Below are positions 5,800-22,613 of a DNA stretch of 32,587 bases, one piece after another. The translations under genes were made by a program, and so were the position numbers. The stretch is from positions 1 through 32,587 of the IMG/VR virus record IMGVR_UViG_3300046462_000544; one strand, given 5' to 3'. Below the pieces are notes generated by a model, which did not search any database, had not been told where the DNA came from, and worked only from the letters and a program-made list of their open reading frames with translations. The number at the start of each line of letters is the position of its first letter. Position 1 is the first letter of the stretch. This DNA is from a virus.

Positions 5800-7691
5800 G
5801 CATTGCCCTGCGTGATCTCGCCGTAGGCGTCCAGCACCACCATCTTGCTTTTGCTGGTGCAGGCGATCTCGGGCACCAGGTCGCGGCCGCTGCCGAGCTG
5901 CCGGTACACCAAACGCTTCAGGGTGTCACCGTGCACGCCCAGCCCCTGCGTCACCACCAAATCGCCGCCGGCGGCCGCCTGGCGCCAGGTCTTGCCGCCA
6001 TCCTCGCTGATGCGCAACTCCATGAGCGGCTCCGGATCCGCGACGGCCACCTGGCCAGTCTCGACCTCCAGCACCAGCCGATGCCAGAAGAGCTTCAGCT
6101 TCTCGATGCAAATATGCGCCCACCTGCGCACGTATCTGATCGCGGTTCCATCGTCGTCGTGAAAGTCAGTCGACATCTCATAGAGCTTCGCGTCGTTATT
6201 GCCAGATACGACGTGCATGCCGACCGTGGGGCCTTCGTCGGCTCCCGGCGTCCGCGCTCCCGAGAACTCCTGCACGTATGCGTGAAATCCAGGGATGGCG
6301 CTGAAGAACGTGTTCCCGCTGATCACGTTCAACAAGGCCCACTCCACCCAGACGTTCTCGCCCACATCGTATACCCAGCTCGTAGAACTGCCGTTAATTT
6401 GCCAGAAATAGTGGCCCAGCATCTCAAATGCGATCGCCCTCACCGTTGAGAACTCGCCCTTCCAGGCCTGCTCGATTGCGTGCGTCGATACTCGCTCCAT
6501 CGCGAAGCCGCGGGTGCGGTACGCCACACCGTCATTGCCGATCAGGTAGAGGCTTTCGGCCAATTCAACCAGTGACTCCATCGCGCCGAGGCCTCGCTTG
6601 ATAGCGCCCGAGGGATTCCGCTGGAACGGAAAGTCCGGATTACCGGTCTGGTCCCACACCTCGGTTGTTTCGTTGCCGAATAGCCAGAGCTCCAAACTGT
6701 GGGCGAACGCGCGCACCAGGTTGTCTGAGTAGCCCTCTTTCAGTTCGTAGTCGAGTGGGCGCCAGGTCGAGAAATCATTGAGGGCCGAGATATTGAACTG
6801 GCGCGTGCCAGGCCTGGTGATGATGCCATAGCCGCCGAGGAAAGTTGCGCTGCTCGCCGCCAGCAGCACGTTGGAGATCCGCCAGTCCACCTGCGTCTGC
6901 ACACCGGCGCTCGAGGTCAGCTGCAGCGTGAAAGCATTCTGCGCGTACGCCACCGTGTACGGCGTGCCGCCAATTATGATCGTTGCGCCTGGCGCGCCCG
7001 CCACGTCGAACTGATCGCCGGCCTGCACCAGGAAGCCGTCTGCGTGATCATTGAGGAACGTAGCAGTGAAGGTGGTGCCCGTGTTCCCTGTGACGATGAC
7101 GAGCTCCGCGTTGTCGGCCCCTTCGTCGATCCAGAGCGCCATGCCATTGCGCGTGATCAGATCCATCGAATCCGGCGTTACGGTGCGGGAACCGGCGGCG
7201 ATGCCCACTGCCACCACCGTGTCGACGCCGGGGGCCAGGTTGACTTCCTTGCCGTCGGTCGAGGCGAAGCCGGCGAGCTCGTCCAGGTAGATCGCAGTGG
7301 CCACCGTGCCGGATCCGTCCTGCCAGTGGTAGCAGCCGCCGTTCGCGCCCACTACGAACACCTGCAGGAAATTCGGCGTCAGGCCGTTCAACAGAATCCA
7401 GTCCTTGAGGCCTGGGCTGCTCGTCACAACGCCGGTCGTGGTCTGGGCCACAGTAAAGCCCGAGGTCAGCTCCTTGAGCGTGTTCGCCGACAGTACGAAC
7501 AGGCGGCCGTTAATCGCGGCGAGGGCAGTGGCCTGCGAGCCCAGCGTGATGAGAGACTTCACGCCAGGCCTGCCGTAAAAGCCCGCCGGCGACTTCGACC
7601 CTCCGCTCTCGATGTAGAGGTTGATTGTGCGCTGCGCGTCCGCGGTCAGCGAGCGCCCCTCTGAGGAGGGACCGATCAGGGGAATTTTCAT
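5796..7691 (-). CDS. Tail hub / packaged-DNA stabilisation protein, P22 gp10-like
   Basis: A 631-residue protein. The opening segment, with GRSLTADAQRTINLYIE (12-28) and a GRPGV motif, is the signature of the P22 gp10 family, which forms the distal tail hub and keeps packaged DNA from leaking. The second half has many Trp/Phe-rich strands (for example LELWLFGNETTEVWDQ) expected of a beta-propeller hub. P22 gp10 is 472 residues long. The excess here is partly a Gly/Thr-rich insertion at about residues 153-224, which resembles the N-terminal module of three exported proteins in this window. The start overlaps the stop of the adaptor gene by ATGA. It would sit in the virion tail, between adaptors and needle or fibres. 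Confidence 0.8.
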   Translation of the reverse strand: MKIPLIGPSSEGRSLTADAQRTINLYIESGGSKSPAGFYGRPGVKSLITLGSQATALAAINGRLFVLSANTLKELTSGFTVAQTTTGVVTSSPGLKDWILLNGLTPNFLQVFVVGANGGCYHWQDGSGTVATAIYLDELAGFASTDGKEVNLAPGVDTVVAVGIAAGSRTVTPDSMDLITRNGMALWIDEGADNAELVIVTGNTGTTFTATFLNDHADGFLVQAGDQFDVAGAPGATIIIGGTPYTVAYAQNAFTLQLTSSAGVQTQVDWRISNVLLAASSATFLGGYGIITRPGTRQFNISALNDFSTWRPLDYELKEGYSDNLVRAFAHSLELWLFGNETTEVWDQTGNPDFPFQRNPSGAIKRGLGAMESLVELAESLYLIGNDGVAYRTRGFAMERVSTHAIEQAWKGEFSTVRAIAFEMLGHYFWQINGSSTSWVYDVGENVWVEWALLNVISGNTFFSAIPGFHAYVQEFSGARTPGADEGPTVGMHVVSGNNDAKLYEMSTDFHDDDGTAIRYVRRWAHICIEKLKLFWHRLVLEVETGQVAVADPEPLMELRISEDGGKTWRQAAAGGDLVVTQGLGVHGDTLKRLVYRQLGSGRDLVPEIACTSKSKMVVLDAYGEITQGNA

Positions 7692-8461
7692 GGCTCCATC
7701 AGCCCAGAGAACCAGTTGTAAAGGCCGCCGCCGCCGCCCCTGGTGAGGTCGCTCGCTGCGTTCAGCTTCGGCGACGTCGCGGCCACTCTGTTAATTGCGT
7801 TCATCGAATTGGTGGCCAATATTCGCACGTCGGGCGAAACCGGGATCCCAAACATGGGGCCGATGCGCAGCGCCAGGTTCGACACGATTCCCTCTTCCCA
7901 GCCGTCCGGATACGCGAGCACGGTGTCGAGGTCGACCGGCTTTTGCAGGCCCAGCCAGGTGAACAGCTCGATCTGATAGACCGCATCAGGGATCGGCCTG
8001 AGGTAGATGTTCGAGAGGGGGGCTGCAGCGTCGTTATACAGCCCGCTCGGGAAGGTGTAAATCTGCTGCAGCGCGATAGAGGCCCAGTCGGCGTCATCCC
8101 AGATACGCAGCTTGCGGCGGATTGGCGGGTCCGTGTTGAAGAGCAGATTCGCGCGCGCGATGCGCTGCGGCCGCGGCCCGTCCCAGTCGCCGCCTGGGCC
8201 CAGCTGGTAGATCTGCTGCTGCGCCGTCGTGGGCCACTGGTGGATGTCGAGAGCATAGAGTGCGCCGCGCAGCGCGTTCCAGTTCCCCAGCATGCGCGTG
8301 AAGCACTTCATCGCATCGTTGTATTGCTGCGAGGCCGGCACGCGATCGGCCCCGAGAGTCACCCGCGCCAGGCGCAGCGCGTGATACAGGAGCTCCGAGG
8401 TTGGCGTGCCGCCGAGCTGCTCAATCGATTGATCGGCGTTCCAGGTATTGTTCGGTGTCAT
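7688..8461 (-). CDS. Head-tail adaptor / tail accessory protein, gp4-like (copy 2)
   Basis: A 257-residue protein with an N-terminal helical part. In it, ELLYHALRLARV and QQYNDAMKCFTRMLGNWNAL match the pattern of P22 gp4-like adaptors, where a helical bundle is followed by a short beta region (IYLRPIPDAVYQIELFTWL) and a C-terminal tail. A Gly run close to the end (GGGGG) precedes LYNWFSGLMEP. In the family the protein forms a ring under the portal and starts the tail. A second protein of the same plan lies upstream (10548-11288), with the exported beta-helix gene between them. One could be the portal adaptor and the other a further ring. It overlaps the hub gene by ATGA. The family call comes from pattern and position. 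Confidence 0.65.
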   Translation of the reverse strand: MTPNNTWNADQSIEQLGGTPTSELLYHALRLARVTLGADRVPASQQYNDAMKCFTRMLGNWNALRGALYALDIHQWPTTAQQQIYQLGPGGDWDGPRPQRIARANLLFNTDPPIRRKLRIWDDADWASIALQQIYTFPSGLYNDAAAPLSNIYLRPIPDAVYQIELFTWLGLQKPVDLDTVLAYPDGWEEGIVSNLALRIGPMFGIPVSPDVRILATNSMNAINRVAATSPKLNAASDLTRGGGGGLYNWFSGLMEP

Positions 8462-8466
8462 GGGAG

Positions 8467-10539
8467 TTAGTAAGCGTGCCAGGCGCCGCGGTTATAAATG
8501 CAAGTCGCGCCGGCCTTGTCCCCCGCGGATGTGGGTGCCGCGCCCTGCGTGAGTGGCGTGTCGCAGTCGTCGCAACCCATGCGCGATCCAGCTACCGGCG
8601 TGAGGGTAACCAGCTTCGCGTAATGCACCGACGCGATCGTGTCGATCGACAGGCCCGTGCTGTTGGCGATATCAAGCGCCGTCGTGGTCAGCGGGTAGCT
8701 GTTGTCCCTGATTTCCAGATTCGTTTCGCTCCCGAATGTGTGGATTCCGCTGCCAAATTGGTAGCAGAGGTTGCCGGCCACCCGCAGGCGATCGCCAAAT
8801 GCGACCTCGATGCACTTTGTGTTCGTCGTGGTGCCCGAGTACAAATAGTTGTCCGCGATCAGCGCGCCGCTCAGTCCGGAGGCGTTGATCGTAAGTCCGT
8901 TGAACGTAGTAAGCGGATCCACAAAGTGGTCGATTCTGTTGCCGACCACAGTTACGACTCCAAAGCGCGCCTGGCTTTCGAAGTCCACGCCCGAGGTCCC
9001 GATGGACCCCATGTCCACCGTGTTGTTCTCAATCGCGATCTCCGACGTCCCGCCAGGCACGTAAAACCAGGGCGTTGACTGAGTGCCCGCACTCCCGGTG
9101 AGGGTCATGTGGTTGCCGTCGGTCACCGAGGCAATGGTGTAAAGGCCGGGGCCGATCGCGGTTGCCTTGCCAGCCCATGCGGTTTGGAAGACCGCCCCGG
9201 AATTGCGCGTGACCGCAGTGCCCGAGGTCGACACGTTGCCCATCGTGAGCTGCACGAGCACGCCTTTAACGCCACCCAGAATATTGTTGTGGTACACCTG
9301 GAGGCCGCCGGGGCTGTCGATCTCGATATTGTTGGTGCAATTCTGCGGGCCAAACCCGTCGAAGCAGTTCAGAATGTTGTCGCGCACCACACCGAATCCG
9401 CCGTCACCGTCGGTCGCGATCGAGCCGAAAACAAACTTGCCGTTTTGCACGCTGGTCATGCCGTAGATCTGAATGTTGCTCACGTTGATCGCGTTGATTC
9501 CCACCTGGAAATTCTGCAGGACCGAGTCTCGAATGATCGAGCCGTTGTTGCTGGCCGCAGAGGTGGTGCCCAGGCCGCTGCCGCTGATCTGGATCCCAAT
9601 GTTGGTGGACATATTCGCGAAGCCCGCTGCGCCCAGGAAACTCACGCCCTCGATCAGCACCGTTCCGGCCCCGACGTCGATCATCGGGATGGCCATCGAA
9701 GACGCCATCGTGTAGGACATATTGCCGGCGCCCGGGCCCACAATATGGGTCGCCGCCGACGTGCGAGCCGTGCCGTGAAATATGCAATTCGTTCCCGGCG
9801 GGATGCTGACCGTCCCGCCATTGGCGGCCGTGACTGCCTGCCCGAGGCCGCAGGTGGCGCTCGAGATCGAGTAGCCGCCGCCCGTGTGATTGTTGTTCGG
9901 GGTAACCGTGATAGTTCCGGATCCGCCGGCGCCGCTGCAGGTGCTCGAGGTGACGGTGACCGTCTCCGCGGATCCGTCCTGAATGTAGATATCCTGGCCG
10001 GCCGCCATCCAAGCGCAGGGGGACACCGGTATCGTCTGGTTGACGCCGTGCGCCACCAGGCTCGCTCCCGGGGTCTGGGTGAACATGAAGCTCGGCACAT
10101 TCAGCGAGCCCACATTTACATTCGCCTCGATGGCCTCGACTTCTTTTGCGATCGCGTTATGGTCCCAGGCCACCGGCTGATTGACCACCGGCTCATTGTT
10201 GGTGTGAGCCACCGCGATCGTGCCATCGAAGCCGCGGCCGTCGACGTTCGGGCAGCTGGCGCGGCCGACGTTGACAACGTTGCCGGCGATCGAGCACACC
10301 CACACGATCTCGGGCTTCGTAGAACCGATCGAGAGCATCATGTTCGCCACCATGCCGGCGGTGCTCTTCAGAGTGATCGCGGTGGAGCTCGACGTGATGC
10401 TCCCTACGAGGGCCGTCTTGACGTTGTTTCGCGCTATGCCGAGCTGCGCATCGGTCACCGCGCTGCCCGGGTAGACCGCGGTCTGGGCAGATATCCGCGG
10501 AACGCTGGCGAGCGCCAGCAGCAGAAGTAAGGTTTTCAT
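8467..10539 (-). CDS. Exported parallel beta-helix protein (pectate-lyase-like fold), possible tailspike
   Basis: A 690-residue protein that starts with a strong Sec signal peptide: MKTLLLLLALASVPRISA followed by Q, a signal peptidase I site. Residues 40-117 hold a module also found in the 428- and 284-residue exported proteins and in the tail hub. From about 250 to 640 the chain shows short repeating turns rich in Asn, Gly, Ile and Val (for example IIRDSVLQNF, NNIEIDSPGG, IAIENNTVDM). These are typical of right-handed parallel beta-helices such as tailspikes and polysaccharide lyases. The C-terminus has GCDDC and ends in GAWHAY. Its site between two tail-adaptor genes fits a receptor-binding tailspike, but tailspikes normally lack signal peptides. 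No catalytic residues could be assigned. It may be a secreted polysaccharide-binding or degrading protein. Confidence 0.75.
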   Translation of the reverse strand: MKTLLLLLALASVPRISAQTAVYPGSAVTDAQLGIARNNVKTALVGSITSSSTAITLKSTAGMVANMMLSIGSTKPEIVWVCSIAGNVVNVGRASCPNVDGRGFDGTIAVAHTNNEPVVNQPVAWDHNAIAKEVEAIEANVNVGSLNVPSFMFTQTPGASLVAHGVNQTIPVSPCAWMAAGQDIYIQDGSAETVTVTSSTCSGAGGSGTITVTPNNNHTGGGYSISSATCGLGQAVTAANGGTVSIPPGTNCIFHGTARTSAATHIVGPGAGNMSYTMASSMAIPMIDVGAGTVLIEGVSFLGAAGFANMSTNIGIQISGSGLGTTSAASNNGSIIRDSVLQNFQVGINAINVSNIQIYGMTSVQNGKFVFGSIATDGDGGFGVVRDNILNCFDGFGPQNCTNNIEIDSPGGLQVYHNNILGGVKGVLVQLTMGNVSTSGTAVTRNSGAVFQTAWAGKATAIGPGLYTIASVTDGNHMTLTGSAGTQSTPWFYVPGGTSEIAIENNTVDMGSIGTSGVDFESQARFGVVTVVGNRIDHFVDPLTTFNGLTINASGLSGALIADNYLYSGTTTNTKCIEVAFGDRLRVAGNLCYQFGSGIHTFGSETNLEIRDNSYPLTTTALDIANSTGLSIDTIASVHYAKLVTLTPVAGSRMGCDDCDTPLTQGAAPTSAGDKAGATCIYNRGAWHAY

Positions 10540-10547
10540 TGGGGGTT

Positions 10548-11288
10548 CTACTGGTTGGGCGCCGCCGGCGGCGGGCCCAGCTCGATCTGGCCGTTGATCT
10601 CGACGATTCGGCCCTTTGACCTGGCTGCGTTGTCGCGCAGCTCCTGCGACACCGGCCGGCCGTAGCTTGGGGCCAGCACGATCGCCAGCTCCTCGACCAG
10701 GGCGAGCTCGTAGCCCGGGACCGGGAAGGTGATAGCGGTGCTCAGGGTGGCAAACGTGGTCAGGGCCAGCCAGTACGAGAGCTCGATCGCGGCCGCGGCC
10801 TGCGGGATCGGATGCACTCTGAGGTTCTTCAAGGGAGCCGCGCTATCCTCGCCCAGCTTGGTGGGCATCGAGCCAGTCGCCCATAGGGCAAGCACCGCAC
10901 TCGCCGGCATGCCGTTCGCCAGGTACTCGACCACCGCGGGCCTGGCGTTGTGGTCGAGGCTCTGCTCGAATACGCCCATCGGCATCACCGCGCAGCCCTG
11001 CTGCAGGCCCTGGTAGGTAACGGTGGCGCCTTTGATCTTGATCGGCCGCGAGGCGATCGAGAAGTTGCCGCCAGAGCCCATCGTGTAGCTACCCACGCCT
11101 TGGGCGAGGGCAAACGAACTGACCGCATGGTTGAAGCAGACGATGCCCTCGAGCGACCAGCTGTCATAGATCCGGTTCAGCTGGATGAGTGCGTTGTTGC
11201 TCTCGGGCGTGGATGCGCCTTCGCCTGGCTGCGTCTCGCCGAGCTCCAGCAGCGCGGAGTCGATAATGTTTTGCGGGGTTAGCGACAT
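10548..11288 (-). CDS. Head-tail adaptor / tail accessory protein, gp4-like (copy 1)
   Basis: A 246-residue protein. The start TPQNIIDSALLELGETQPGE (residues 4-23), then ALIQLNRIYDSWSLEG, is a classic opening for P22 gp4-type head-completion proteins. After that comes a beta-rich middle and a helical end (YELALVEELAIVLAPSYG, then a helix to ING). It should bind under the portal ring and form the first tail ring. The ATG at 11288 directly follows the stop codon of the 83-residue gene. It is longer than P22 gp4 (166 residues) and similar in size to the second copy at 7688-8461. Confidence 0.7.
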   Translation of the reverse strand: MSLTPQNIIDSALLELGETQPGEGASTPESNNALIQLNRIYDSWSLEGIVCFNHAVSSFALAQGVGSYTMGSGGNFSIASRPIKIKGATVTYQGLQQGCAVMPMGVFEQSLDHNARPAVVEYLANGMPASAVLALWATGSMPTKLGEDSAAPLKNLRVHPIPQAAAAIELSYWLALTTFATLSTAITFPVPGYELALVEELAIVLAPSYGRPVSQELRDNAARSKGRIVEINGQIELGPPPAAPNQ

Positions 11289-11540
11289 CTACTTCCCGGC
11301 TTTCAGGGCCTTCGCGGCCGCCTTTGCCTGGGCCTTGGTGAGCTGCTTCGCCGGCTCTTCAGCTGCCGGATCCGCGACGGCATTGCCGCGCGCGGCGACT
11401 TCCGGATCCAGCTCGACGCCAGGCGCAGTCTCGATCCCGTGCGCCAGCGGCGACGTTTCCCAGCCCGCCTCCTCGGCTTCGGCCGATTCGATTCTGCGAG
11501 CAGGTTCGGTGCGGTGGAACCGCATGCTTGGGTATTCCAT
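11289..11540 (-). CDS. Small acidic head-region protein, unknown
   Basis: An 83-residue protein. The start MEYPSMRFHRTEPARRIESA, followed by an acidic stretch and GWETSPLAHG, matches a small protein often found between coat and adaptor genes in podovirus-like phages. Its function is not established. The C-terminus is Ala/Lys-rich (TKAQAKAAAKALKAGK) and should be helical. It could be a head-completion or minor capsid protein. It lies just after a hairpin that may terminate part of the transcript from the coat region, and its stop codon directly abuts the ATG of the adaptor gene. Confidence 0.65.
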   Translation of the reverse strand: MEYPSMRFHRTEPARRIESAEAEEAGWETSPLAHGIETAPGVELDPEVAARGNAVADPAAEEPAKQLTKAQAKAAAKALKAGK

Positions 11541-11557
11541 TGATGTTCTCTTTCGGG

Positions 11558-11587
11558 TTAAAACGGGGGCCAGAGGAGCCAGCCCCC
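11558..11587 (-). terminator. Candidate intrinsic terminator after the coat/exported-protein pair
   Basis: Read on the minus strand, GGGGGCTGG and CTGGCCCCC (11579-11587 and 11565-11573) form a 9-bp stem around a 5-base loop, followed by GTTTTAA. Two of the pairs are G-U wobbles in minus-strand RNA but C/A mismatches in plus-strand RNA, so the hairpin favours minus-strand transcripts. The U-run is short (4), so termination may be partial, which would lower expression of the genes downstream. Confidence 0.45.
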
Positions 11588-11609
11588 AGGGGGAAGAAAC
11601 GACAGGCCT

Positions 11610-12464
11610 TTAGAACTTCTCTACGGACGCCGAAACATTGGCCGCCGTATCGGAAGTGGCCGAAACAAACTGGAACTGCAGGACGTCGCCGGCGGCCACC
11701 GCCACCGAGTGAGCAACGTCGATGCAGGCGGCCGCCGCGGCCGTCGCACAGGCAGTAGTCCCCGTCGTGACGGTCAGGGCTGTCGCCGAGCCGTTCTTCG
11801 TAACGGTGATCACGTCCTTGTTAGAGCCGCCGGCGCCCGCTGCGGACAAAGTGACGCGCAGGTTAGCGATCGTGCCAGGAGCCGCAACAACGTACCTTGC
11901 GGTGGCGGTGGTTGCGCCGCTGCAGGCCGCGCCGTTCAGGTACTCGGTTTCGGCCGAGCCTGCGGTCCCGGTGCAGAACGCGCGCACAGTCTCATCCGAG
12001 CCGGCAGACATGGTGCCCTTGCCGATCTGAATGATCTGACCCGATGAGCGGCAATCGAAAATCTTGCCGTTTGTCGTGTTGATGATCGGCAGCACCAGTT
12101 CAGTGGCTGCAGTGCAGGCGCTGCCGATGGCCCGATCCGCCGCGGAGAACAACTGCGGCGCGCCCGGGTATACGATGGCGCCCGACACATGCGCCGAGGG
12201 GGCGAACCGACGGTCGACCACATAGCACGAGCTGCTCGTGCCCTGCGCGACCACCGCCATGGGCTCATAGTCAGCGAACAGAATGGTGCCCGGGGCGACG
12301 ATGGAAGGCAGCACGATACCGGTGGTGGAGGCCACGCAGACTTGCCCGTCGGTCTTCGCGACCGCAGCGGACAGTGTGGTGGGAGTGAGCGTGAACGTCT
12401 GGGCGAAGGCCGCCGGGACGGACACCAGGGCGAGAATCAGTGAGATGTTTCGGAAGGTTTTCAT
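11610..12464 (-). CDS. Exported protein following the coat gene, possible decoration/adhesion protein
   Basis: A 284-residue protein. The ATG at 12464 was chosen because it gives a textbook signal peptide ending VPAAFA before Q, with AAGGAA upstream. Residues 26-106 are the shared module (LTPTTLSAAVAKTD ... DYEPMAVVAQ ... APSAHVSGAIVYPGAPQLF). A second segment, LPIINTTNGKIFDC, also matches the 428-residue exported protein. The C-terminal half (about 150-284) is Ala/Thr/Gly-rich with ITVTKNGSATALTVT and paired Cys, a wording common in surface and collagen-like spore-coat proteins. A gene right after the major coat gene often encodes a capsid decoration protein, but a signal peptide would send this protein out of the cytoplasm. 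The role is unproven. Confidence 0.75.
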   Translation of the reverse strand: MKTFRNISLILALVSVPAAFAQTFTLTPTTLSAAVAKTDGQVCVASTTGIVLPSIVAPGTILFADYEPMAVVAQGTSSSCYVVDRRFAPSAHVSGAIVYPGAPQLFSAADRAIGSACTAATELVLPIINTTNGKIFDCRSSGQIIQIGKGTMSAGSDETVRAFCTGTAGSAETEYLNGAACSGATTATARYVVAAPGTIANLRVTLSAAGAGGSNKDVITVTKNGSATALTVTTGTTACATAAAAACIDVAHSVAVAAGDVLQFQFVSATSDTAANVSASVEKF

Positions 12465-12504
12465 GGTGTGATTTCCTTTGTGTGTTGCGTGTCGGATTAG
12501 CTGG

Positions 12505-13752
12505 TTAGCCCTCGATCGCGCAGGCCATCTCGCCGTACAATTTCGCGAAATCGTACAACACGTCGAAGCGGTTGATCTCCTTGCGGTACACGCCATCGAA
12601 CGCGCGCACCATCGAGATCGAGATCTTCGTCTCGGGGTCAGTCACTTCGGTTACCAGAGCGCCCATCCCGGGCTCGGGATTGTTCAGGGGCACGCTGACG
12701 AACGCGAAAGCGTTTTTATGCATGAGCAGAGCCTGCGGCGTCACCGTGCCGGCGCCTGCGCCCGAGTCAACGGTGAGCAGCGCGCCATCGACTGCTGCCG
12801 ACGTGAAGAACACGTTCTGATACTGACCGCTCGGCGTGATCGCAGGCGCGATCAGCGTGGCGGAAGTGCCATCCGACAAGCTGGAGGAATCAGCCAGTAC
12901 AACGAAGGACAACAACCGGCCGGTCGATTGGTGAGTCTGCGGGTGGCTGGCGTAGTGGCCCGCGATCGTGAAGCGATCGCCGGCATTCAGCCGCGGCGCT
13001 GCAGCGTTGTTCCATGACTTTATGTTCAAGGTCATGGTCCCGTTGTTGCCGCCGTCGGCAGTCTGCAGCAGGTTGATCGCCGGCGCGCCACCGAGGGCTC
13101 CGACAGTGCGCGAATAGATCGTCTGATCCCGGTACACGTTGTAACCGAGTGAGTCGACCATTCGGCCTTGTTTCCACTGCTGCGTGATCGAGCCAGTCGG
13201 GTTATACAGAGACTTCACGCCCGAGACGAATTTGCTTGAGAACTTGCGGTTGATGATGAGCGCCAGCTCTTCGCCCTCGGGCAGTCCCTGCTCGATGAGG
13301 ATGTCGCCAGCCGTCAGATACGGCACCTCGTCTGCGGGAGTTGTGCCAGGCGCGCCGGCCTGGTTCCACGTATTCAACGCGACGAACTTTGCCGCCTCCG
13401 CGTTGATCGTGCTGGCCAGCGCCATAGCCGCCGGCTTGCTGTACAGCTCGCGCACTTCGCGAATGGACAAGGTCTTTTCCACCGAGTCCCACTCGAAACC
13501 AACCTGCGCGACCTGGCTCACTTTGATCGGCGTCACCTGGTCGACCAGGGGCTGCGGATCGTACTTGAGGCCCTTGCTTACGGTGAAGCGGTAGGGCTTT
13601 CTCGCTTCCACCGTGGAGCCGACCTTGAATTTCTTGTTGGCGTACTCGGGGCTGATCGCGTGCGACATATTGGCGCACACGTTCAGCGAAGACCCGAGAT
13701 CCATCAAGACGAGCTTCGCGAAAACGTTCGGAGTTACTACTGCGTTCGCCAT
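12505..13752 (-). CDS. Major capsid (coat) protein, P22 coat-like
   Basis: A 415-residue protein, close to the 430 residues of P22 gp5. It begins MANAVVTPNVFAKLVLMDL and has the basic N-arm with ARKPYRFTVSKG. The segment VSQVAQVGFEWDSVEKTLSI and a long helix with ASTINAEAAKF are typical of the P22 coat family (HK97 fold with an inserted domain). The middle part holds INRKFSSKFVSGVKSLYNP and a Gly/Asn-rich beta region. The C-terminus (EVTDPETKISISMVRAFDG, then RFDVLYDFAKLYGEMAC) is characteristic. It builds the icosahedral head with the scaffold encoded just upstream. An AAGGTAG ribosome site precedes the ATG. Confidence 0.85.
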   Translation of the reverse strand: MANAVVTPNVFAKLVLMDLGSSLNVCANMSHAISPEYANKKFKVGSTVEARKPYRFTVSKGLKYDPQPLVDQVTPIKVSQVAQVGFEWDSVEKTLSIREVRELYSKPAAMALASTINAEAAKFVALNTWNQAGAPGTTPADEVPYLTAGDILIEQGLPEGEELALIINRKFSSKFVSGVKSLYNPTGSITQQWKQGRMVDSLGYNVYRDQTIYSRTVGALGGAPAINLLQTADGGNNGTMTLNIKSWNNAAAPRLNAGDRFTIAGHYASHPQTHQSTGRLLSFVVLADSSSLSDGTSATLIAPAITPSGQYQNVFFTSAAVDGALLTVDSGAGAGTVTPQALLMHKNAFAFVSVPLNNPEPGMGALVTEVTDPETKISISMVRAFDGVYRKEINRFDVLYDFAKLYGEMACAIEG

Positions 13753-13789
13753 TTTCTACCTTGTGAAGCGCCCACAGAGGAGCGCGGTT

Positions 13790-14749
13790 TCAGCCGGCCA
13801 GAATCTTGCCCATGGCCCGTTTAAACGTCGTCATGTCGGCTTTGTCGAGATCCACCGTTACCGGGGCTGTCGCCGAATCGATCGCTGCGGGGGGCTTGGG
13901 CAGAGGCTGTGCTGCTGCTGCTGGTTTCGTTTTAGGAGGTGTAAGCCGTGCTTCGAGCTTTCCGATCTCGCGCGCGATCGCCACCGGATTGCCGAGCCTG
14001 GCCATTGCCAGAGTCTCATCCTGGTGCTCGTGCATGTACATGAGAATTTCGCCGCCAACGTCGGAGCCTTTGATCAGGTCCGCTACGCCGGCCTCGGTGA
14101 TGAACGGTCCCACGCTCGCGATCGCATCCTGAAAATCCGGATGTGTCGACGCCGCGGCCGTCGCTTCCCACTTGGCGTTGATCGCTTTCTGCGATTCGAG
14201 CTGCTGGCTGCGCTTGGCTTCTGTTGCGCCGGCCTGGTGGGCCTGCTCAAGCTTCCAGTCAGTCAACCGCTCGGAGTACTCGAGCTTTGCCTGCTCGAGC
14301 TCTTCCCACGTGCCTGTCCAATTCGCGATATCGGGCGGCGCGGGCCTTCCCGCGGGTTTCGCGGCGGGCTCCGCAGCTGCAGCTGCAGCCTCCACCGGGC
14401 CAGGTGGCGTGCTTTTCGCCTCCAGCTCCCTGCGTAGACGTGCAAGTTCGGCCTGTGCTTCGATATCGCGCTGGCGGGCTTCGTCGCGCTGCCGCGTGAG
14501 TTTCGAAAATCGCTTGTCGAGTGCGCTCTCTTCTTTCGGCTTGTCCGTTTCCTGGGGCTTGGCGGTTTCTGATTCCGCCGGCGTTTGTTCCGACGCCTCG
14601 GCCGTCTTTTCAGCCGGGGGCGTCACAGGGGTTTCGGGGGTGGCTTCGGCTTGCGCCGCTGCCGGTGCCTCGCTCAGTAAAGCGCGGAGCTCCGAGATGC
14701 TGGGCTCCGGACTGGGCGTGGGCGGTACTATCGTGTTCGTTGTTTCCAT
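13790..14749 (-). CDS. Capsid scaffolding protein
   Basis: A 319-residue protein, similar in length to the P22 scaffold (303). It is highly charged and helical. A disordered N-terminus rich in Pro, Glu, Thr and Ala (1-75) leads into a predicted coiled coil (KRFSKLTRQRDEARQRDIEA and following). The C-terminus ends in a short basic-acidic helix (LDKADMTTFKRAMGKILAG). In P22-type scaffolds the last residues form the coat-binding hairpin. It lies directly upstream of the coat gene, the usual order. It should direct procapsid assembly in the cytoplasm and then leave. There is no sign of an internal protease. Confidence 0.8.
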   Translation of the reverse strand: METTNTIVPPTPSPEPSISELRALLSEAPAAAQAEATPETPVTPPAEKTAEASEQTPAESETAKPQETDKPKEESALDKRFSKLTRQRDEARQRDIEAQAELARLRRELEAKSTPPGPVEAAAAAAEPAAKPAGRPAPPDIANWTGTWEELEQAKLEYSERLTDWKLEQAHQAGATEAKRSQQLESQKAINAKWEATAAASTHPDFQDAIASVGPFITEAGVADLIKGSDVGGEILMYMHEHQDETLAMARLGNPVAIAREIGKLEARLTPPKTKPAAAAQPLPKPPAAIDSATAPVTVDLDKADMTTFKRAMGKILAG

Positions 14750-14806
14750 GAGTTTGTTCTCAAGTCTCTTTTCGGTGGTGAGGCCCCGCGGCCGTGAAGC
14801 AGAAAT

Positions 14807-17800
14807 CTAGTGGACGAAGGCGCCCTTAATGCCGGCGCCGCTGGTCCCGCCCGTTGTGACTGGGTGGGCATCCTGCGTGAACGTGAGCACCTGGCCGCCG
14901 ATCGTGACGGTGGCCACGCGCTGCCCGCCGCTGTTCGCCGCGACAGTGCAGTTCGCGGTGCCGTTGCCTGTGCCCGTTGAGCTCGTGGTGATCCAGGTAT
15001 CCGAACTGACCGCCGACCAGGCGCAGCCCGCGCCGGCCGTAACCGCGATCGAGAACGAGCCGCTCGCCGAGCTGCCGCCGGCACTCATAGGCGCGATCGA
15101 ATAGGTGCAGACGGGCGCGTCAGGGGCCGCCTGGGTCACTGTGTAGGTCTTGCCGGCTATCGTCGCCGTACCTGTTCGCAGCGCCCCAGTGTTGGCCGCG
15201 ACGGTCAACGTCGCCGTACCATTGCCGGTGCCTGTCGAGCTCGTGGTGATCCAGGAGACGTTGCCCGCGGCCGTCCACGCGCACCCGCCGCCGGCCGTCA
15301 CTGTCACGCTCAGCGATGCCCCTGCCGAGGTGAGGCTGGCCGATGTGGGGCTGATCGAATACGTGCAGCCCGCGCCGGCGCTCTGCGTCACCGTGTAGAT
15401 CTGGCCCGCGATCGTGATTGTTCCCACCCGCAGCACACCAGTGTTCGCCGCGATTGTGTAGGCCGCTGTGCCATTGCCCGATCCGGTCGAGCTGGTGCCG
15501 AGCCATGACACGTTGCTTGTCGCAGTCCAGGCGCACCCATCGTCTGCGGTCACCGCCACCGAGCCGCTGCCGCTGCTTGAGGCAACGGAGTCGCTGGTGG
15601 GATCGATCGAGTAAGAGCATGACGGGGGCGCCGGCGCGTCTCCCTCGCCGATCAGCCGCAGCGAGGAGGAGGTTATCGTGGATCCGTTCTTTTTGTCTTC
15701 GAGGATCCATACCGCCGTCGATGGCGGTATCGGTACGTTGATCGTGCAGCCGCTGGCGCAGGCCTTCCACTGCTGCGTCTCGGATGCAAACAGGAAGGGC
15801 GTGGAGCCGGTGGCGTCGGTCGCGCAGGATTCCTGGCGAGGGGTGCAGAAGAGCTGATCCGGCCGGCCGTATTCCGCCAGGCCGAACCGAACCCGGCGAG
15901 TGTCACCCGAAACGCCGGCGCCATAGACGATCGGCACATTTACAAAGTTGGTTCGGTCAATGCCGTCGGCCGTCGTGTCTGCCGGCAGCTGCGCGGCGAA
16001 CAGGTCATCTCGCAGCCCGTCGGCGTGATTGATTTCGGCGATGCCCCATTGCCCCGTGGGGTCCGGAATAATGTTGCTGAACTGGTATTGCCGTGAGGGC
16101 CCAGTCAACCCAAAGCCCAGGTTCCGCTGCTTGGTGCCGCCGGCGTCGTCGGTGTCGATCCCCTGCTGCACCATGTGCGCCCCGGATCCGGTGTAGGCCG
16201 CCACGCACGGGTAATTCGTCGCGTAGCTCCCGACGTGGCATGCCGTGTCTGTGCTCGCGCCAGGCACAACGATGAAGTAATCGCCCGCTGAAGATCCGCC
16301 GCGGCATTCTCCCGCGTGCAGAGCCCAGCAGGACTGCCAGGGTGTCGCGTCCGATACGGCCGATGTCGGCGAACTCACGTCTTGCAGGAGGGTATAACCG
16401 GACCAGGCGATCGGCGGCGAGTACTTGTAATTCAGCCCGCCGTTCAGAGTGGTGACTTTGTAGACGCTGCTCGTGCCGACCACCAGGGCATACGCCATCA
16501 CCCCGCTGCGGGAGTCGGTTTCAGCGGGGGCTCCTCCGCTCGGGTTGTAATGGAAAAAGTTAGTGAGCCACTTTTTGCGGCCGGCCGTCGCCGCCAGCTG
16601 GTGGAGCGACGGGTAAGACTGCGGCTGCAGGCCGCCAGCCCCGACGCCGGTAAACGACGGGTTGCCAAAATGCGTGTTGTAATCGGTCCCGATCTGCGTT
16701 GCGAACGGGATGTTATATCGGCATTTTCCGCCCTGGCAAAATGTACTGCTGCCTGGAGTGGGGCTCTGAGTGGGGCCGTCCGAGTGGCCAGAGAAGATGC
16801 CAGGATCCCCGAGCCAGTTTGTCGCCTTCGTTACATCGTCCCAGGAGCCGGCGCCCGGCGAGCATCCAACGTCGGGCGAGTGGTCGCAGCCAGCGCCCGT
16901 CGGCATCGCATAACCCTTCCAGCCGCTTTCGGTGGTCTGCGCGCCGCCAATATTCGTCGTCACGCCGCGAATCCAGGTGATCTGCCGCAGGTGCTTAGGG
17001 GCTCCCTGGTCCGCGCCCACCGTCAGCGCGACCATCATCTCCCCACTCGTTTTGAGCGGATTGATGACCATGATCTGGTCATTGACCGCCCAGTCTTGCA
17101 GGCAGGCGTCATTCGGAAAAAACGGCGAATCGCTGGGGCAGGGCCACTTCTCGTTCTCGTACGGATGCCCGCTGCTCTGGTAGGGCGCCACGCTGTGCGG
17201 GGGCTCCATGTTCACCGTCACGCAGACCGGAGTTGCAGCGTGAAATATCCCCGCTGGAATTGTGCCGCAGTCGTCGGCCGGCGCTGAAGGGCTCATGGAG
17301 GTGTCGCTGGTGAAGCTGGAGCTCTTAAGCATCGTGGCCACACCGGCCTCCCAAGGCCCCGCGCCCATCTTGGTGGGCGATGAAGAGAAGTTGCCCACGC
17401 CACCGATCGGGTTGCCCACCAGGCCGAACCACACATCGTTTGCCGTGGTCGTGTGCTTGGCCGTCCAACGCAACCCCGGGGAGCTCCAGGTATCCCAGGA
17501 CTTGTCCACTGCGCCGGTCCCAAGGTCGAAGCTGTGAATGAGGGCGATCGATTCGGAGTTACCGCCAGCGCCCACCTGGTTGCTCATCACGAGGCCTTTG
17601 CCGGCCACGATCCGCTCCAGGATCGCTCCGTGGAACAGCGAGGGGCTGAACTTCGAATCAGCCGCAGTGATCGCCGCATCCATGTCGACGAGGGATGACC
17701 AGGTCAGGCCGGTATCACTCCAGGGCGGCCCTCCAAACCAGTAAGCGGTCGTGTCCTGCCCGGGCAAATAGCCCGCGGAGACATTCGGATAAAAAGAGTG

Positions 17801-19177
17801 CTGGTAGGACCGATACCGATACGTGCCGGCGTCGTACGTGCCGACCATGATGTTACTGCCCTGCTGCAGGTAGATTTTGTTCCCATTCGTGCCGTCGAAC
17901 GGTCCCTCGACCGCACTGTACCCGCCGCCCGTCAAAAACACCGGCGCGATCAGCCGGCTCTCAGCCGTGGCGGGAATCCACAGGTACAACGCCTCCGCGT
18001 CTCCCTCGTGGCTGATGCCCACGCAAAGATTCCCGGCAAGATCGGAGCCAAGCACCGTCGTGCCATCCGCCGCGTAATGGACGGTCACCGGCACCTCGTT
18101 ACAGTGCCCTGGAAAGCCCTCTGCTGGCTCGCCGAAATTATCCGAGATCTTGTAGTCGAAGCTCGCGCTGAACTGCACCGTGCCGCCCGGGCTGCTCGCA
18201 TCAATCCACATAAGCAAGCCCGCGCCGACGCCTACGATCTGCGTGTTGCCCAACGCAGCGCCCCATCCATTCCAGTAGGAGGCCGCCGTCGGGTGCGCGT
18301 TGTCGGCCGCGTCGGGCCAGTTGGCCGCGGGGTATTGATTGCCAGAGCCCGCCCCGGGCGCCCCAAGGGTCTGGGCCGGCGTGAGGCAGGTAGCCGTGGA
18401 TGTTCCCGCGGCGCTCGCGATGCAACCCTTCAGGACCGTGCCGGCGGCCGCCGCCCCGAACATGGTGACGCGGATGCCGTCCACGCTTTTCTTCGGTTGC
18501 CAGCCCTGCTGGACTACTGGATCGTTTGGGAAATTGCCGAGGTCCAGGAATAGCCAGCCATCGTCGCCGCCGCCGGTGTGCGCAAACGACGCCACCGTGC
18601 CGGCGTTGCCGCTGATCGCGTTACTCGGGCTCGACCATCCGGATCCGACGGCCGACGCGAACGTCTGCCCCGTCCTGTAGTAGCCGATCCACCCCGGGGC
18701 CGTTACCCGGATCCAGAGCGTGCCAGTCATGCGATCGATATACTTTTTGAACTGGTCGACCCAGTCGATCCTGGGCCACGGGTAATTGCCAAACCGGGTG
18801 GCGTCGAACGGGATCGGATGACTGTAGCCGTCGCCGATCGGCTGCGGTTTGGTGGTGAAGGTGATTGTGCCGGTATCCAGGCCCGACCTACACGTCACCG
18901 TGAAGACGATCAGGGAATTCGACGGCAGCGGCGCCAGGTCGCCTGGTCCGGTCCCGAGCTGAACGGTTACACTCAGGTCCGGATTGCTGACCGCATACAC
19001 CCCGGAGACATCCACCGCATACGGCGTGCCCGTGGGCGCAGCCGTTGCGCTGTAGACCGGCGACGTGCAGACCGCATGGGTGACCGCGCCCTGCGAGGCC
19101 GTGATCGGTCCCTGAGTTACTGCGATCGTGGCGGCCGACGCGATGCCCGACGCCAGAAGCAGAGCAAGGATTTTCAT
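14807..19177 (-). CDS. Giant exported protein with three C-terminal BACON domains
   Basis: A 1456-residue protein with a Sec signal peptide (MKILALLLASGIASA, then A). Residues 20-1180 are a large beta-rich, Trp/Gly-rich region that I cannot assign to a family. It includes a YPWPRIDWVDQFKKYI segment near 140 and several Cys pairs. Three BACON domains follow at about 1186-1270, 1271-1354 and 1356-1440. Each opens with C-x-YSI-x-P and contains GCAW, a W(L/I)TTSSTG-type turn, GNGTA and (V/I)AAN(T/S)G, and ends in a VTQ or FTQ strand. BACON domains occur in extracellular Bacteroidota and Acidobacteriota proteins and in crAss-like phages, and are thought to bind glycans or mucin. The gene sits between the portal-linked exported gene and the scaffold, overlapping the former by ATGA. 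This placement within a head module is unusual. Confidence 0.85.
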   Translation of the reverse strand: MKILALLLASGIASAATIAVTQGPITASQGAVTHAVCTSPVYSATAAPTGTPYAVDVSGVYAVSNPDLSVTVQLGTGPGDLAPLPSNSLIVFTVTCRSGLDTGTITFTTKPQPIGDGYSHPIPFDATRFGNYPWPRIDWVDQFKKYIDRMTGTLWIRVTAPGWIGYYRTGQTFASAVGSGWSSPSNAISGNAGTVASFAHTGGGDDGWLFLDLGNFPNDPVVQQGWQPKKSVDGIRVTMFGAAAAGTVLKGCIASAAGTSTATCLTPAQTLGAPGAGSGNQYPAANWPDAADNAHPTAASYWNGWGAALGNTQIVGVGAGLLMWIDASSPGGTVQFSASFDYKISDNFGEPAEGFPGHCNEVPVTVHYAADGTTVLGSDLAGNLCVGISHEGDAEALYLWIPATAESRLIAPVFLTGGGYSAVEGPFDGTNGNKIYLQQGSNIMVGTYDAGTYRYRSYQHSFYPNVSAGYLPGQDTTAYWFGGPPWSDTGLTWSSLVDMDAAITAADSKFSPSLFHGAILERIVAGKGLVMSNQVGAGGNSESIALIHSFDLGTGAVDKSWDTWSSPGLRWTAKHTTTANDVWFGLVGNPIGGVGNFSSSPTKMGAGPWEAGVATMLKSSSFTSDTSMSPSAPADDCGTIPAGIFHAATPVCVTVNMEPPHSVAPYQSSGHPYENEKWPCPSDSPFFPNDACLQDWAVNDQIMVINPLKTSGEMMVALTVGADQGAPKHLRQITWIRGVTTNIGGAQTTESGWKGYAMPTGAGCDHSPDVGCSPGAGSWDDVTKATNWLGDPGIFSGHSDGPTQSPTPGSSTFCQGGKCRYNIPFATQIGTDYNTHFGNPSFTGVGAGGLQPQSYPSLHQLAATAGRKKWLTNFFHYNPSGGAPAETDSRSGVMAYALVVGTSSVYKVTTLNGGLNYKYSPPIAWSGYTLLQDVSSPTSAVSDATPWQSCWALHAGECRGGSSAGDYFIVVPGASTDTACHVGSYATNYPCVAAYTGSGAHMVQQGIDTDDAGGTKQRNLGFGLTGPSRQYQFSNIIPDPTGQWGIAEINHADGLRDDLFAAQLPADTTADGIDRTNFVNVPIVYGAGVSGDTRRVRFGLAEYGRPDQLFCTPRQESCATDATGSTPFLFASETQQWKACASGCTINVPIPPSTAVWILEDKKNGSTITSSSLRLIGEGDAPAPPSCSYSIDPTSDSVASSSGSGSVAVTADDGCAWTATSNVSWLGTSSTGSGNGTAAYTIAANTGVLRVGTITIAGQIYTVTQSAGAGCTYSISPTSASLTSAGASLSVTVTAGGGCAWTAAGNVSWITTSSTGTGNGTATLTVAANTGALRTGTATIAGKTYTVTQAAPDAPVCTYSIAPMSAGGSSASGSFSIAVTAGAGCAWSAVSSDTWITTSSTGTGNGTANCTVAANSGGQRVATVTIGGQVLTFTQDAHPVTTGGTSGAGIKGAFVH
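14870..15625 (-). repeat. Tandem BACON-coding repeats, three units of about 252-258 bp
   Basis: The three BACON domains are also visible as DNA repeats. For example, GAGCTCGTGGTGATCCAG (plus-strand reading) occurs exactly at 14979-14996 and 15237-15254, 258 bases apart. The matching but diverged point of the third unit is at about 15489, 252 bases further. The unit lengths are multiples of three, so recombination between units would keep the frame. Confidence 0.75.
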
Positions 19178-20460
19178 TTATAGCTGACCACCTGGAGCCG
19201 CTGCACAGTGCCCGAGCTTGAGGGATTCGTCGCCACGTACAACTTTGTCGGCGTCATTGCCGAGCCCGAGACGGTGGTGCCCACCACATCGTTCCAGAGC
19301 TCGATCCAGCTGCCATCGGTCCCTGACACCGACCAGCCGCAGTGCATTTTGCCGGCATCCGTTCCGCCATCCAGGTTCTGGCCCACGGTCAACCTGAAAG
19401 CCATCAGCGTGCCGTTGGCCGGGATGATCGTGGGCGGCGTATAGCTGGCTCCGCTGTAGGTGTGGTCGTTAGTCCAGCGGGCGGCGCCCAGACCCAGCGC
19501 CAGGGATACCGCGCCAACGCCGCAATCGAAATACTGAGTTCCATCGGAAAACCCAACACTGGCGCCGGGATAGTTGCCGCCATTCAACAGCGGAACAACC
19601 CAGAACGTCCGCGCGAATGGAGCCGTGGGAATGGCGATGCTCTTGCCGCAGATCTCATCTCCCGAGCCGACCTCACTGACGATCGTCAGCGCGCCAGTGT
19701 CGAACGTTGGCGTGCAGTGCGAGCCGTTAACCGTCGTCCAGTCTCCCGACACCAGCGGAGTGTAGGGCGATCCGCCGCCGCCGCTCATTGAGGTTTTCAC
19801 GCCCAGCGAGCTGACCGTGTAGAGCGTGGTGCCCTCCACGCATAAAGTGAAATCGTATTGCAGCATCGTGACTGGGTCAGTCTCCGCGGTTGTCGGGCAG
19901 GTGCCAGTGTGCGAGGAGATCCGCAGCGGCCCGCTGCCGGTCGAGATCGAGGAGGCGCGTATCGGATACGCCCCCACATCGAGCCCGCGGCCGACTACTG
20001 TCAGGGTCGAACCGTCGTCAGTGATCGGCAGGCCCGAGGGCGTACGCGCCACCCAGAGCCCCGCAGTGCAGTCCCAGACTTTGCCGGTGCTCAAGACCAC
20101 CCGCGGCAGCACGCGCTCGCTGGTGGACACGCAGGCCCCTTCCGGATCAGTTGCAGCGTAGTCCTCAGGGGCGCCCACCCACACGGTAGCGCCCGAAAGG
20201 TGCGCCGACTGCCGCTGGCCCGTTGCGCCGCGAGAGACGCCTGCCGCGAGGCTTCTCACCCCGGTTACGGTCATCGCCTCTGAATCAATCACCAGCTGGG
20301 TGGCGCTCTGGTTGGGGGACGCCGGCGACATCCTGGCCGTCGACGCGACATAAAGGATTGAGTCATTCACCGCCACCGCTTTAGTGAGGGTGGTCGAGGT
20401 CATGGTCCGCTGGCCGTAAAGGCCGGCCGACAGTGATGCAATCAGTAAAAGAGTTTTCAT
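19174..20460 (-). CDS. Exported protein coupled to portal, shared-module family
   Basis: A 428-residue protein with a signal peptide (MKTLLLIASLSAGLYG, then Q). Residues 20-99 form the shared module: TSTTLTKAVAVNDSILYVAS, a DSEAMTVTGV core, then SRGATGQRQSAHLSGATVWV. A second segment, VLPRVVLSTGKVWDC, matches LPIINTTNGKIFDC in the 284-residue exported protein. From about 245 to the end it is a Gly/Thr/Trp-rich beta region that could be a lectin-like jelly roll; I could not name a family. Its ATG overlaps the portal stop by ATGA, and its own stop overlaps the BACON gene start the same way. The three are therefore probably one transcript. An extracellular binding role is inferred. Confidence 0.75.
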   Translation of the reverse strand: MKTLLLIASLSAGLYGQRTMTSTTLTKAVAVNDSILYVASTARMSPASPNQSATQLVIDSEAMTVTGVRSLAAGVSRGATGQRQSAHLSGATVWVGAPEDYAATDPEGACVSTSERVLPRVVLSTGKVWDCTAGLWVARTPSGLPITDDGSTLTVVGRGLDVGAYPIRASSISTGSGPLRISSHTGTCPTTAETDPVTMLQYDFTLCVEGTTLYTVSSLGVKTSMSGGGGSPYTPLVSGDWTTVNGSHCTPTFDTGALTIVSEVGSGDEICGKSIAIPTAPFARTFWVVPLLNGGNYPGASVGFSDGTQYFDCGVGAVSLALGLGAARWTNDHTYSGASYTPPTIIPANGTLMAFRLTVGQNLDGGTDAGKMHCGWSVSGTDGSWIELWNDVVGTTVSGSAMTPTKLYVATNPSSSGTVQRLQVVSYK

Positions 20461-22613
20461 TGTGCTGCTTCCGGTTGCTGCTGCTGCTGCTGTGCTTGCT
20501 GCGCCTGCGTGGCTTGATCGGCCTGGTGCTGCCGGTCCTGGGTGGCCTGGTCTGCCTGGTGCTGCTGGTCAGAGGCCTGGGCCTGCTTCTGGTGCTGGCG
20601 ATCGAGGGCGGCCTCGATCCGCGCGATATCGGCGCGCAGCATCGTCACGCCGTCGGTCTGGCTGAGCTGAGCGAACGCGATCGTGCGCTTCGTCTCCTCC
20701 TGCATCTCCACGATTTCCCGCTTGGTATCGAGCTCGGCCTGCTTGGTGACCAGCTGCGCGTGCAGGGACTGCGCGAACGATTCGGTCTGCTGGAGCTGCT
20801 GCTGCAGCTGCGTCATTGCCTGCTGGACCTCGGGCGGTATAGGCTGCTGGCCCTTCTGCGGCCGCAGCTCCGGGGGCAGCGTCTTCTCGTAGCGATCGGC
20901 GATTTCCTCGTTCCCGGGTGCGTCGAGGTTGCGGAACAGAATGTCCCCGGCCAACTGCATGAACCGCGGATCCGCCTGCGCAATTTGGCTGTAGGTGTCG
21001 AACGCTTCCTTCCTGGCAGAGGCGTAGCTGCGTCCCGTCGACACCGCATACTCGCCAAGCTCGATCTGGTGGTGCACCATCTGGCCGGTCACATCGTCGT
21101 GGTAGGGCTGCGGCGTGTTGACCTTTACCATGCGCGTCTTGCCGTCCTCGCTGCGCACTGCGACTTCCTTCTCGCCGCGGTCCAGAACTTTGATCAGCGC
21201 GAGCAGGATGCGCCCGATCGCGCGCCGGGTCCGCGCCTCGTTATCCATGAAGTGGAAGTTCGCGTTGTCGGATTCCTTTTGCCGGCGCTCGATCGCAATG
21301 CCCGCCGTCTCGTTGCTCTTGGCTCCCAGGCTGGCGTCGAACATGCCCATCGAGGCCTTCAGCGCGTCCACGGCCTGGTTGTAACCCAGCACGAGGGCCT
21401 GGATCGGCGGCTCTGATGTCTCCCGCTCTGGCGCGCTGATGTGCCGACCTTGTTCGTCCCACTCGTTATAGGGGGCCACCGCGCGAGCCTGCGTGTTGAT
21501 CTCTTCCCAGATCTGCTCGAAGCCCGCGATCGCGCCCACCGGCGCCTTGTACGGTGTTTTCGGGGCCAAGGCGATCATCTCTGCGATGTTCGACACGTAC
21601 AGATTGATCAGCCGCTGCGGATCCTTCGCCTGCCGGATCAGTGAGTAGGTGCGCCTGGCGCCGTCGACCACCTGCTCGTCGCCCCACTCCGGAACGATGC
21701 CGATGTGCGGCACCGGAAAGGTCGTTTCGTCCAGGATTTCCGCGCCATTGATGATGTACTGACAGACCGTGACGTCGTCGCACTCCCACGGCTCGATCGC
21801 CTGGTCGACCAGCTCTGGCGCGCCCTCATCCTGGTAGCGGGTCTGACCGTCCTGCATTTGCACCCGCTTCCGCTTCGTATGCTTTTTTAGCCAATATTCG
21901 GCGATCTGGACGTCCGCGCCCTCGCCCGCCCCAAACCACTCCGGCGCCGGGCACTCCTGGCTCGATGCCCAAAAATTGTTCTGGTTTGCGAGTGTGTTCG
22001 CGCCGTATTTTCGGTTGTGCTCCGCGCGCGAAATGTTGGTGACGACGAAGCAGTACTCGGCATCCGAGGCGTCGTATTCTCGGTGCGGGCCCCACACAAC
22101 AGAGAACTGGTTGGCGATGCGCTCCAGCCGCGGCTCCTGCTCCCGGCTCTCCTGGTTTTTGTACCTGGTCGTGACCCTGATGGCGGCGCGGCCACAGGTG
22201 ATCTGCTGCTTGCGCGCGGTGTCGTACACGGTGTCCGCATCGCTCTCGTATTCGACGTGCCTGATGCGGTCCTGCAGCATCTCGCCCGTCTCTTTTGTGC
22301 CGCCGCCCATCGGCGTGATTTTGATCGCCGGCTTGTTCTGTCTCCCGTCGTTCACCACCTGCGCGATGAACGTCGGCAACCTGTTCTCAGTCAGGATCGG
22401 CCGCTTCGCCGCCACGCGCTGCGCGATCGCCGTTAAGGCCCACTGGGAGCTGCCGCCGAGCACGTTCGGAGTGGCGGCCGCGAATTGCACATCGTCCACC
22501 GCTTCGTCACGGTCCAGCTTGTCGACCGCCAGGGCGTGGTCGTAGCGCGTGCGCGCATCATGCAGGAACTCCTCAACGTCCAGAGGCGAGACGGTCTTCG
22601 ATTCGTAGGGCAA
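20457..22613 (-). CDS. Portal protein, P22 portal-like
   Basis: A 718-residue protein, against 725 for P22 gp1. The helical N-terminus, AKRPILTENRLPTFIAQVVND, a PAIKITPMG strand and the FSVVWGPHREYDASDAEYCF segment match the P22-type portal family. In this family a ring of twelve occupies one capsid vertex and passes DNA. The C-terminal 130 residues are predicted coiled coil, extremely Gln-rich, with a DQQHQADQATQ unit repeated as DRQHQADQATQ and then a run of Gln. The C-terminal part forms the barrel in P22. It follows the 88-residue gene closely and overlaps the next exported gene by ATGA. Confidence 0.85.
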   Translation of the reverse strand: MPYESKTVSPLDVEEFLHDARTRYDHALAVDKLDRDEAVDDVQFAAATPNVLGGSSQWALTAIAQRVAAKRPILTENRLPTFIAQVVNDGRQNKPAIKITPMGGGTKETGEMLQDRIRHVEYESDADTVYDTARKQQITCGRAAIRVTTRYKNQESREQEPRLERIANQFSVVWGPHREYDASDAEYCFVVTNISRAEHNRKYGANTLANQNNFWASSQECPAPEWFGAGEGADVQIAEYWLKKHTKRKRVQMQDGQTRYQDEGAPELVDQAIEPWECDDVTVCQYIINGAEILDETTFPVPHIGIVPEWGDEQVVDGARRTYSLIRQAKDPQRLINLYVSNIAEMIALAPKTPYKAPVGAIAGFEQIWEEINTQARAVAPYNEWDEQGRHISAPERETSEPPIQALVLGYNQAVDALKASMGMFDASLGAKSNETAGIAIERRQKESDNANFHFMDNEARTRRAIGRILLALIKVLDRGEKEVAVRSEDGKTRMVKVNTPQPYHDDVTGQMVHHQIELGEYAVSTGRSYASARKEAFDTYSQIAQADPRFMQLAGDILFRNLDAPGNEEIADRYEKTLPPELRPQKGQQPIPPEVQQAMTQLQQQLQQTESFAQSLHAQLVTKQAELDTKREIVEMQEETKRTIAFAQLSQTDGVTMLRADIARIEAALDRQHQKQAQASDQQHQADQATQDRQHQADQATQAQQAQQQQQQPEAAQ

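Follow-up and report, generated by a model that had tools for sequence, protein, structure and literature searches.

Predicted Sec signal peptides on fibre- and spike-type proteins encoded among the head and tail genes of a P22-like podovirus and of other tailed phages

The assembly of tailed phages is taught as a cytoplasmic process, and the tailspikes and tail fibres of P22-like podoviruses and of phages such as AP22, LKA1 and phi297 are, to our knowledge, made in the cytoplasm without signal peptides. Tailspikes of P22 are known to attach to heads in lysates. Signal peptides that direct virion proteins to Sec or into the membrane are familiar from the filamentous phages, for example on the coat proteins pIII and pVIII of M13. 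Exported proteins are also encoded near the tail genes in the late region of lambda (Lom) and lambdoid phages (Cor), where they act in lysogenic conversion or exclusion. A further system for comparison is RcGTA, the gene transfer agent of Rhodobacter capsulatus, whose head spikes (base Rcc01079, fibre Rcc01080) are head-surface fibres that bind capsule polysaccharide; the N-terminus of the fibre is described as a leucine-repeat anchor to the base pentamer, and no export signal is mentioned in the parts of that paper considered here (PMC7296036).

The window, by which we mean the whole stretch of DNA analyzed, corresponds to a linear virus record with a length of 32,587 bases. Its late module lies on the minus strand and comprises the small and large terminase, portal, scaffold, coat, two gp4-like adaptors, a gp10-like closure protein and further tail and ejection-type genes (Table 1). 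With a P22-type portal and coat, and with scaffold, gp4-like and gp10-like genes (assigned by PHROGs) in order, it contains the head module of a P22-like podovirus, in agreement with an earlier note on this DNA. That note had also placed signal peptides on four genes amid the module, and their coordinates, lengths and order all hold: SP428 and SP1456 are located between portal and scaffold, SP284 directly after the coat gene and SP690 between the two gp4-like genes. Both ATGA overlaps said to tie portal, SP428 and SP1456 together were found, at 20457-20460 and 19174-19177. A 328-aa ORF call for the SP284 gene was rejected because it overlaps the coat gene, and the 284-aa gene is used instead. 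The spike slot is flanked by the two gp4-like adaptor genes; in L007/L008 there are four such genes.

Table 1. Positions of the window features and of signal-bearing spike-like genes in phages that are not P22-like. A slash marks the predicted cleavage site.
Feature	Position	Strand	Remarks
SP428, 428 aa	19174..20460	-	signal peptide ~20413-20460; mature part with N-domain and Cys pair as in SP284 family
SP1456, 1456 aa	14807..19177	-	signal peptide ~19133-19177; three C-terminal BACON domains; 29 Cys in mature part
SP284, 284 aa, coat-adjacent	11610..12464	-	signal peptide ~12402-12464; belongs to conserved signal-bearing family
SP690, 690 aa, spike-like	8467..10539	-	signal peptide ~10486-10539; Cys pair in N-domain
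Fifth predicted exported protein, 205 aa	29532..30149	-	signal peptide ALA/QA; cohesin-like and type I dockerin
Large terminase	23016..24314	-	PF04466, E 3.9e-33
P22-like portal	20457..22613	-	PF16510, E 1.7e-130
Scaffold protein	13790..14749	-	phrog_8865, phrog_648
P22-like coat protein	12505..13752	-	PF11651, E 2.8e-22; phrog_283
83-aa protein	11289..11540	-	between SP284 and first gp4-like gene; conserved in many relatives
gp4-like adaptor, first copy	10548..11288	-	Pfam/PHROG matches
gp4-like adaptor, second copy	7688..8461	-	phrog_12985, phrog_637
gp10-like head closure	5796..7691	-	phrog_578
Signal-bearing spike-like protein, L102	5683-9168		
Signal-bearing spike-like protein, L126	5866-8451		
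Signal-bearing spike-like protein, L128	5734-7917		
Signal-bearing spike-like protein, L134	1427-5623		
Signal-bearing spike-like protein, L137	5926-8256		

Signal peptides were called with our own rule-based scorer, not with SignalP. The predicted N-termini, with a slash at the cleavage site, are MKTLLLIASLSAGLYG/QR for SP428, MKILALLLASGIASA/AT for SP1456, MKTFRNISLILALVSVPAAFA/QT for SP284 and MKTLLLLLALASVPRISA/QT for SP690. The scorer was positive for 36 of 40 coat-adjacent homologues. In the controls it called no signal among 231 homologues of cytoplasmic virion proteins and 10 among 1061 shadow ORFs. SP428, with an unusual LYG/Q site, had the lowest signal score and taken alone falls below the usual threshold. 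Among the 35 distinct N-termini of the coat-adjacent family, a lysine or arginine stands close to the start in 34 and a small-x-small/Q cleavage site is present in 33; the two exceptions trace to a wrong start choice, as the alignment has signal-like N-termini there. The same two cysteines are present in the mature part of all 35. Positive n-region, hydrophobic core, small-x-small motif and conservation in homologues, the features of Sec signal peptidase I substrates, were all found, weakly so in SP428. Failure of most signal predictions, named beforehand as an outcome that would count against the proposal, did not occur. The pN/pS ratio is 0.61 in the signal region and 0.42 in the mature part, and purifying selection on the signal therefore does not serve as proof here.

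As stable disulfides are normally formed outside the cytoplasm, cysteine content provides an independent test of export. In the window, the four predicted exported proteins contain 2.08 cysteines per 100 aa, while the cytoplasmic virion proteins contain 0.38 (p 2.9e-12). The cysteine count is even in 97% of the members of the coat-adjacent family and none is cysteine-free; scaffold homologues are almost cysteine-free.

The observation extends well beyond the window, to other phages from soil and water. Scanning public viral contigs with the coat alignment yielded 49 coat relatives, and in most of them the gene right after the coat is a signal-bearing relative of SP284 or SP428. It is kept across phages with a coat identity of 31-74% (about 31-41% at the divergent end). 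L010-L012, nested within the clade, lack the coat-adjacent gene, which is therefore dispensable. In contrast to the window, the coat-slot proteins of six outgroup P22-like phages (proteobacterial isolates and spring-water assemblies) have no signals and almost no cysteines (zero to two), and in one outgroup phage the portal and scaffold genes flank a gene for an 844-aa fibre-like protein that has no signal. Isolate phages searched directly with the four window proteins gave no match, and viral contigs searched with SP428 or SP1456 alone returned only copies of the same phage.

A profile search revealed relatives of SP690 in two forms, which are either signal-bearing (window, L021, L100, L101, L109, and L123; for example AQTAKFPTSVAADADL) or start exactly at the mature N-terminus (for example MSTPTAVFPSAVATDAQL). 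The N-domain cysteine pair is present in all six signal-bearing forms and in none of the 12 signal-free ones (Fisher 5.4e-5), an association that is not significant after phylogenetic correction because there are only one to three independent comparisons. The pair of the six signal-bearing spikes lies in loop insertions, at either of two places, and the family tree implies a minimum of two to three switches in signal state. L011, the coat of which is 64% identical to that of the window, has no coat-adjacent gene and carries a signal-free spike in the same slot. Among scorable contigs the spike signal tracks the presence of the coat-adjacent gene (3 of 4 versus 0 of 9, p 0.014, uncorrected for relatedness and with counts entered by hand).

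Homology of the mature parts to fibre and spike proteins was detected in part, mostly through relatives. Pfam and NCBIfam searches with SP428, SP284, and SP690 gave nothing above cut-off, and PDB sequence searches nothing significant. The families matched by the N-domain of several SP284 relatives, phrog_38058 (1.3e-6) and phrog_1101, are of tail-fibre and virion-structural type; phrog_1101 is also matched by the L011 spike (4e-7), a relative of SP690 without signal. The AlphaFold model of the L019 family member has a pLDDT of 79, and its N-domain aligns with a chain of the GP4 portal-tail complex, a VP1 capsid chain and the Mystique tail tube (Z 10.6-11.2); F1-ATPase-like barrels score about 8, so that only the top matches are meaningful. 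Foldseek against the PDB gave modest E-values (best 1.1e-3), with the AP22 and phi297 tailspikes listed weakly, and predicted structures of viral proteins gave matches with E-values as low as 1e-13. In N-domain fold, PHROG matches and place in the virion gene block, the signal-bearing proteins thus resemble the tailspikes and tail fibres of tailed phages (P22-like podoviruses; AP22, LKA1, and phi297). Tail-fibre repeats such as GDLSGTYPNP, with cysteine variants, occur in further signal-bearing genes of relatives. A beta-helix had been suggested for SP690; this was not confirmed, as the AlphaFold model is poor (pLDDT 36) and no Pfam repeat was matched. Proteins of the SP284, SP428, and SP690 types look like fibre, spike or head-decoration proteins; position is the sole basis for SP1456, for which no virion homologue was found.

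In the portal-scaffold slot, L021 encodes a signal-bearing 500-aa protein (2456-3958) that is a GTA-type head-spike fibre, sharing with RcGTA the fibre domain NF048003 (5.2e-15). None of the window proteins matched this domain above cut-off. The hydrophobic N-termini could be anchors that fix head fibres to the capsid instead of secretion signals, for which the leucine-repeat N-terminus of the RcGTA fibre offers a precedent (PMC7296036). We consider this highly improbable. The N-termini combine a positive n-region and a hydrophobic core with the cleavage site found in 33 of 35 and show no repeated leucine motif, the cysteine pairs track the peptide, and spikes without the peptide are still encoded in the same slot. 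In L021, two signal-bearing genes (1188-3958) lie between portal and scaffold, the slot of SP428 and SP1456.

The BACON domains announced in the earlier note were recovered, as three stretches of SP1456 (PF13004 above gathering score, E 2e-6). BACON and dockerin domains are found in bacteria too, and the genes might be host-derived secreted cargo (morons) in the late operon that has no role in the virion. The related phage contigs L053 and L054 were binned in a MAG named Nevskia soli that has seven BACON matches, and the only viral relatives of SP1456 are copies of the same phage, both of which would agree with a host origin. The coat-adjacent family, however, keeps its slot, its signal and its cysteine pair over deep divergence, and among 396 genomes of the MAG's phylum a full match was found only in the MAG itself, with weak partial matches in four others; we therefore regard host cargo as unlikely. 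The BACON matches and the 16S 5' ends from its GTDB phylum suggest that the MAG named Nevskia soli belongs to another phylum, probably Acidobacteriota, and the host of the window phage is probably a member of the Acidobacteriota. In both L053 and L054, repetitive ORFs of intron-endonuclease-like type are found between virion genes.

Signal-bearing spikes are not confined to P22-like phages. They adjoin the tape measure gene in L102, the portal and major head genes of another phage type in L128 and the central tail fibre J in L126, and one lies near an internal virion protein in L101. A cultivated example is Tunturi_2, a podovirus isolated on Tunturiibacter psychrotolerans, Acidobacteriota (PMC11924767). 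Its tail block (L145, 9802-22744) contains five signal-bearing genes, gp12, gp13, gp14, gp16, and gp17, of which gp13 is annotated as tail fibre, gp14 as pectin lyase and gp17 as virion structural protein; gp14 has a pectate-lyase-like domain just below the curated cut-off, and the predicted mature ends are QTTGAP in gp13 and QTCTQ in gp17. The signal-bearing proteins contain 2.07 cysteines per 100 aa and the other virion-block proteins 0.51 (p 2e-13). While Tunturi_2 resembles the window in these five signal-bearing, cysteine-rich genes, its head genes differ and the exported proteins of the two phages share no significant similarity. The main text describing the Tunturi phages makes no mention of signal peptides, and the five genes were apparently not remarked on in the description of Tunturi_2 (PMC11924767). 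The fibres of Tunturi_3, a phage recorded on the same host strain, carry no signals; export therefore appears to be a property of the phage, and host necessity was dropped as its cause. Judged from sequence, it is a well supported prediction that tailed phages export proteins of fibre and spike type.

We consider it moderately probable that fibre, spike and capsid-decoration proteins of the virion are routed via the host Sec system and dock on virions at lysis. The signal peptides would direct fibres and spikes to Sec and would be cleaved off by signal peptidase. The exported proteins would fold in the periplasm with disulfides and stay there during the cytoplasmic assembly of heads and tails. 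Holin and endolysin would then mix the two compartments, and the periplasmic fibres and spikes would dock onto the finished virions, resulting in a receptor-binding coat that is stapled and weather-resistant. Occupation of receptors before lysis could be an added benefit. The behaviour of P22 tailspikes in lysates makes docking after lysis plausible for a phage of this type. Filamentous phages differ in that they assemble at the membrane without lysis, while the heads and tails of the window are of the tailed type.

The earlier note had offered several interpretations. Conservation, controls and cysteine pairing support its view that genes for exported proteins are interspersed with virion genes. 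Of its suggestions, joining virions after lysis is favoured, since the mature parts consist of fibre, spike and head-spike domains and sister phages have the same spike, without a signal peptide, at the same slot. The proteins might instead be exported and never become part of virions, acting at the cell surface or in the periplasm (receptor masking against superinfection, a glycan layer) or on extracellular polymers. Signal peptides and cysteine pairs would fit such a role, as would the BACON and cohesin-dockerin domains and the pectate-lyase-like domain of Tunturi_2 gp14, and Lom and Cor show that exported proteins can be encoded near structural genes. We hold this to be conceivable but rather doubtful, as the mature domains are of virion fibre or spike type with an N-domain shared with signal-free homologues, the slots are those that hold fibre or decoration-like genes in outgroups, and the trait is common to several different fibre types. 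Lom and Cor, moreover, are not fibre-like and have no fixed conserved slot beside the coat. Superinfection block by the exported proteins is possible. Positive evidence for an attachment matrix or biofilm adhesion is limited to the BACON and cohesin-dockerin domains, and an extracellular matrix, though conceivable, is not needed to explain the data.

Beyond docking at lysis in the window phage, some tailed phages of several unrelated types may build their virions in two compartments, with heads and tails in the cytoplasm and disulfide-stapled spikes and fibres reaching the periplasm via Sec, to be joined only at lysis; the signal peptide would be a switchable module, gained or lost on homologous spikes. 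On this broader proposal our judgement is evenly balanced. No report of signal peptides on tailed-phage fibres was found in the open-licence literature searched, where absence is not proof, and export of fibre- and spike-type proteins by tailed phages seems unreported. A phage that makes its surface parts beyond the inner membrane would have access to disulfide chemistry, could choose its surface at a late stage and might block receptors before lysis. Annotation may also mistake signal-bearing virion proteins for host cargo. As the trait is present in an isolate with a laboratory host, Tunturi_2, it is testable now.

Further signal-bearing genes occur outside the late module in relatives (L013 927-2508 and L043 814-1731). 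No viral relative of the 205-aa protein of the window was found in our search. It combines a cohesin-like domain and a type I dockerin on one chain, and self-association outside the cell could be conceivable.
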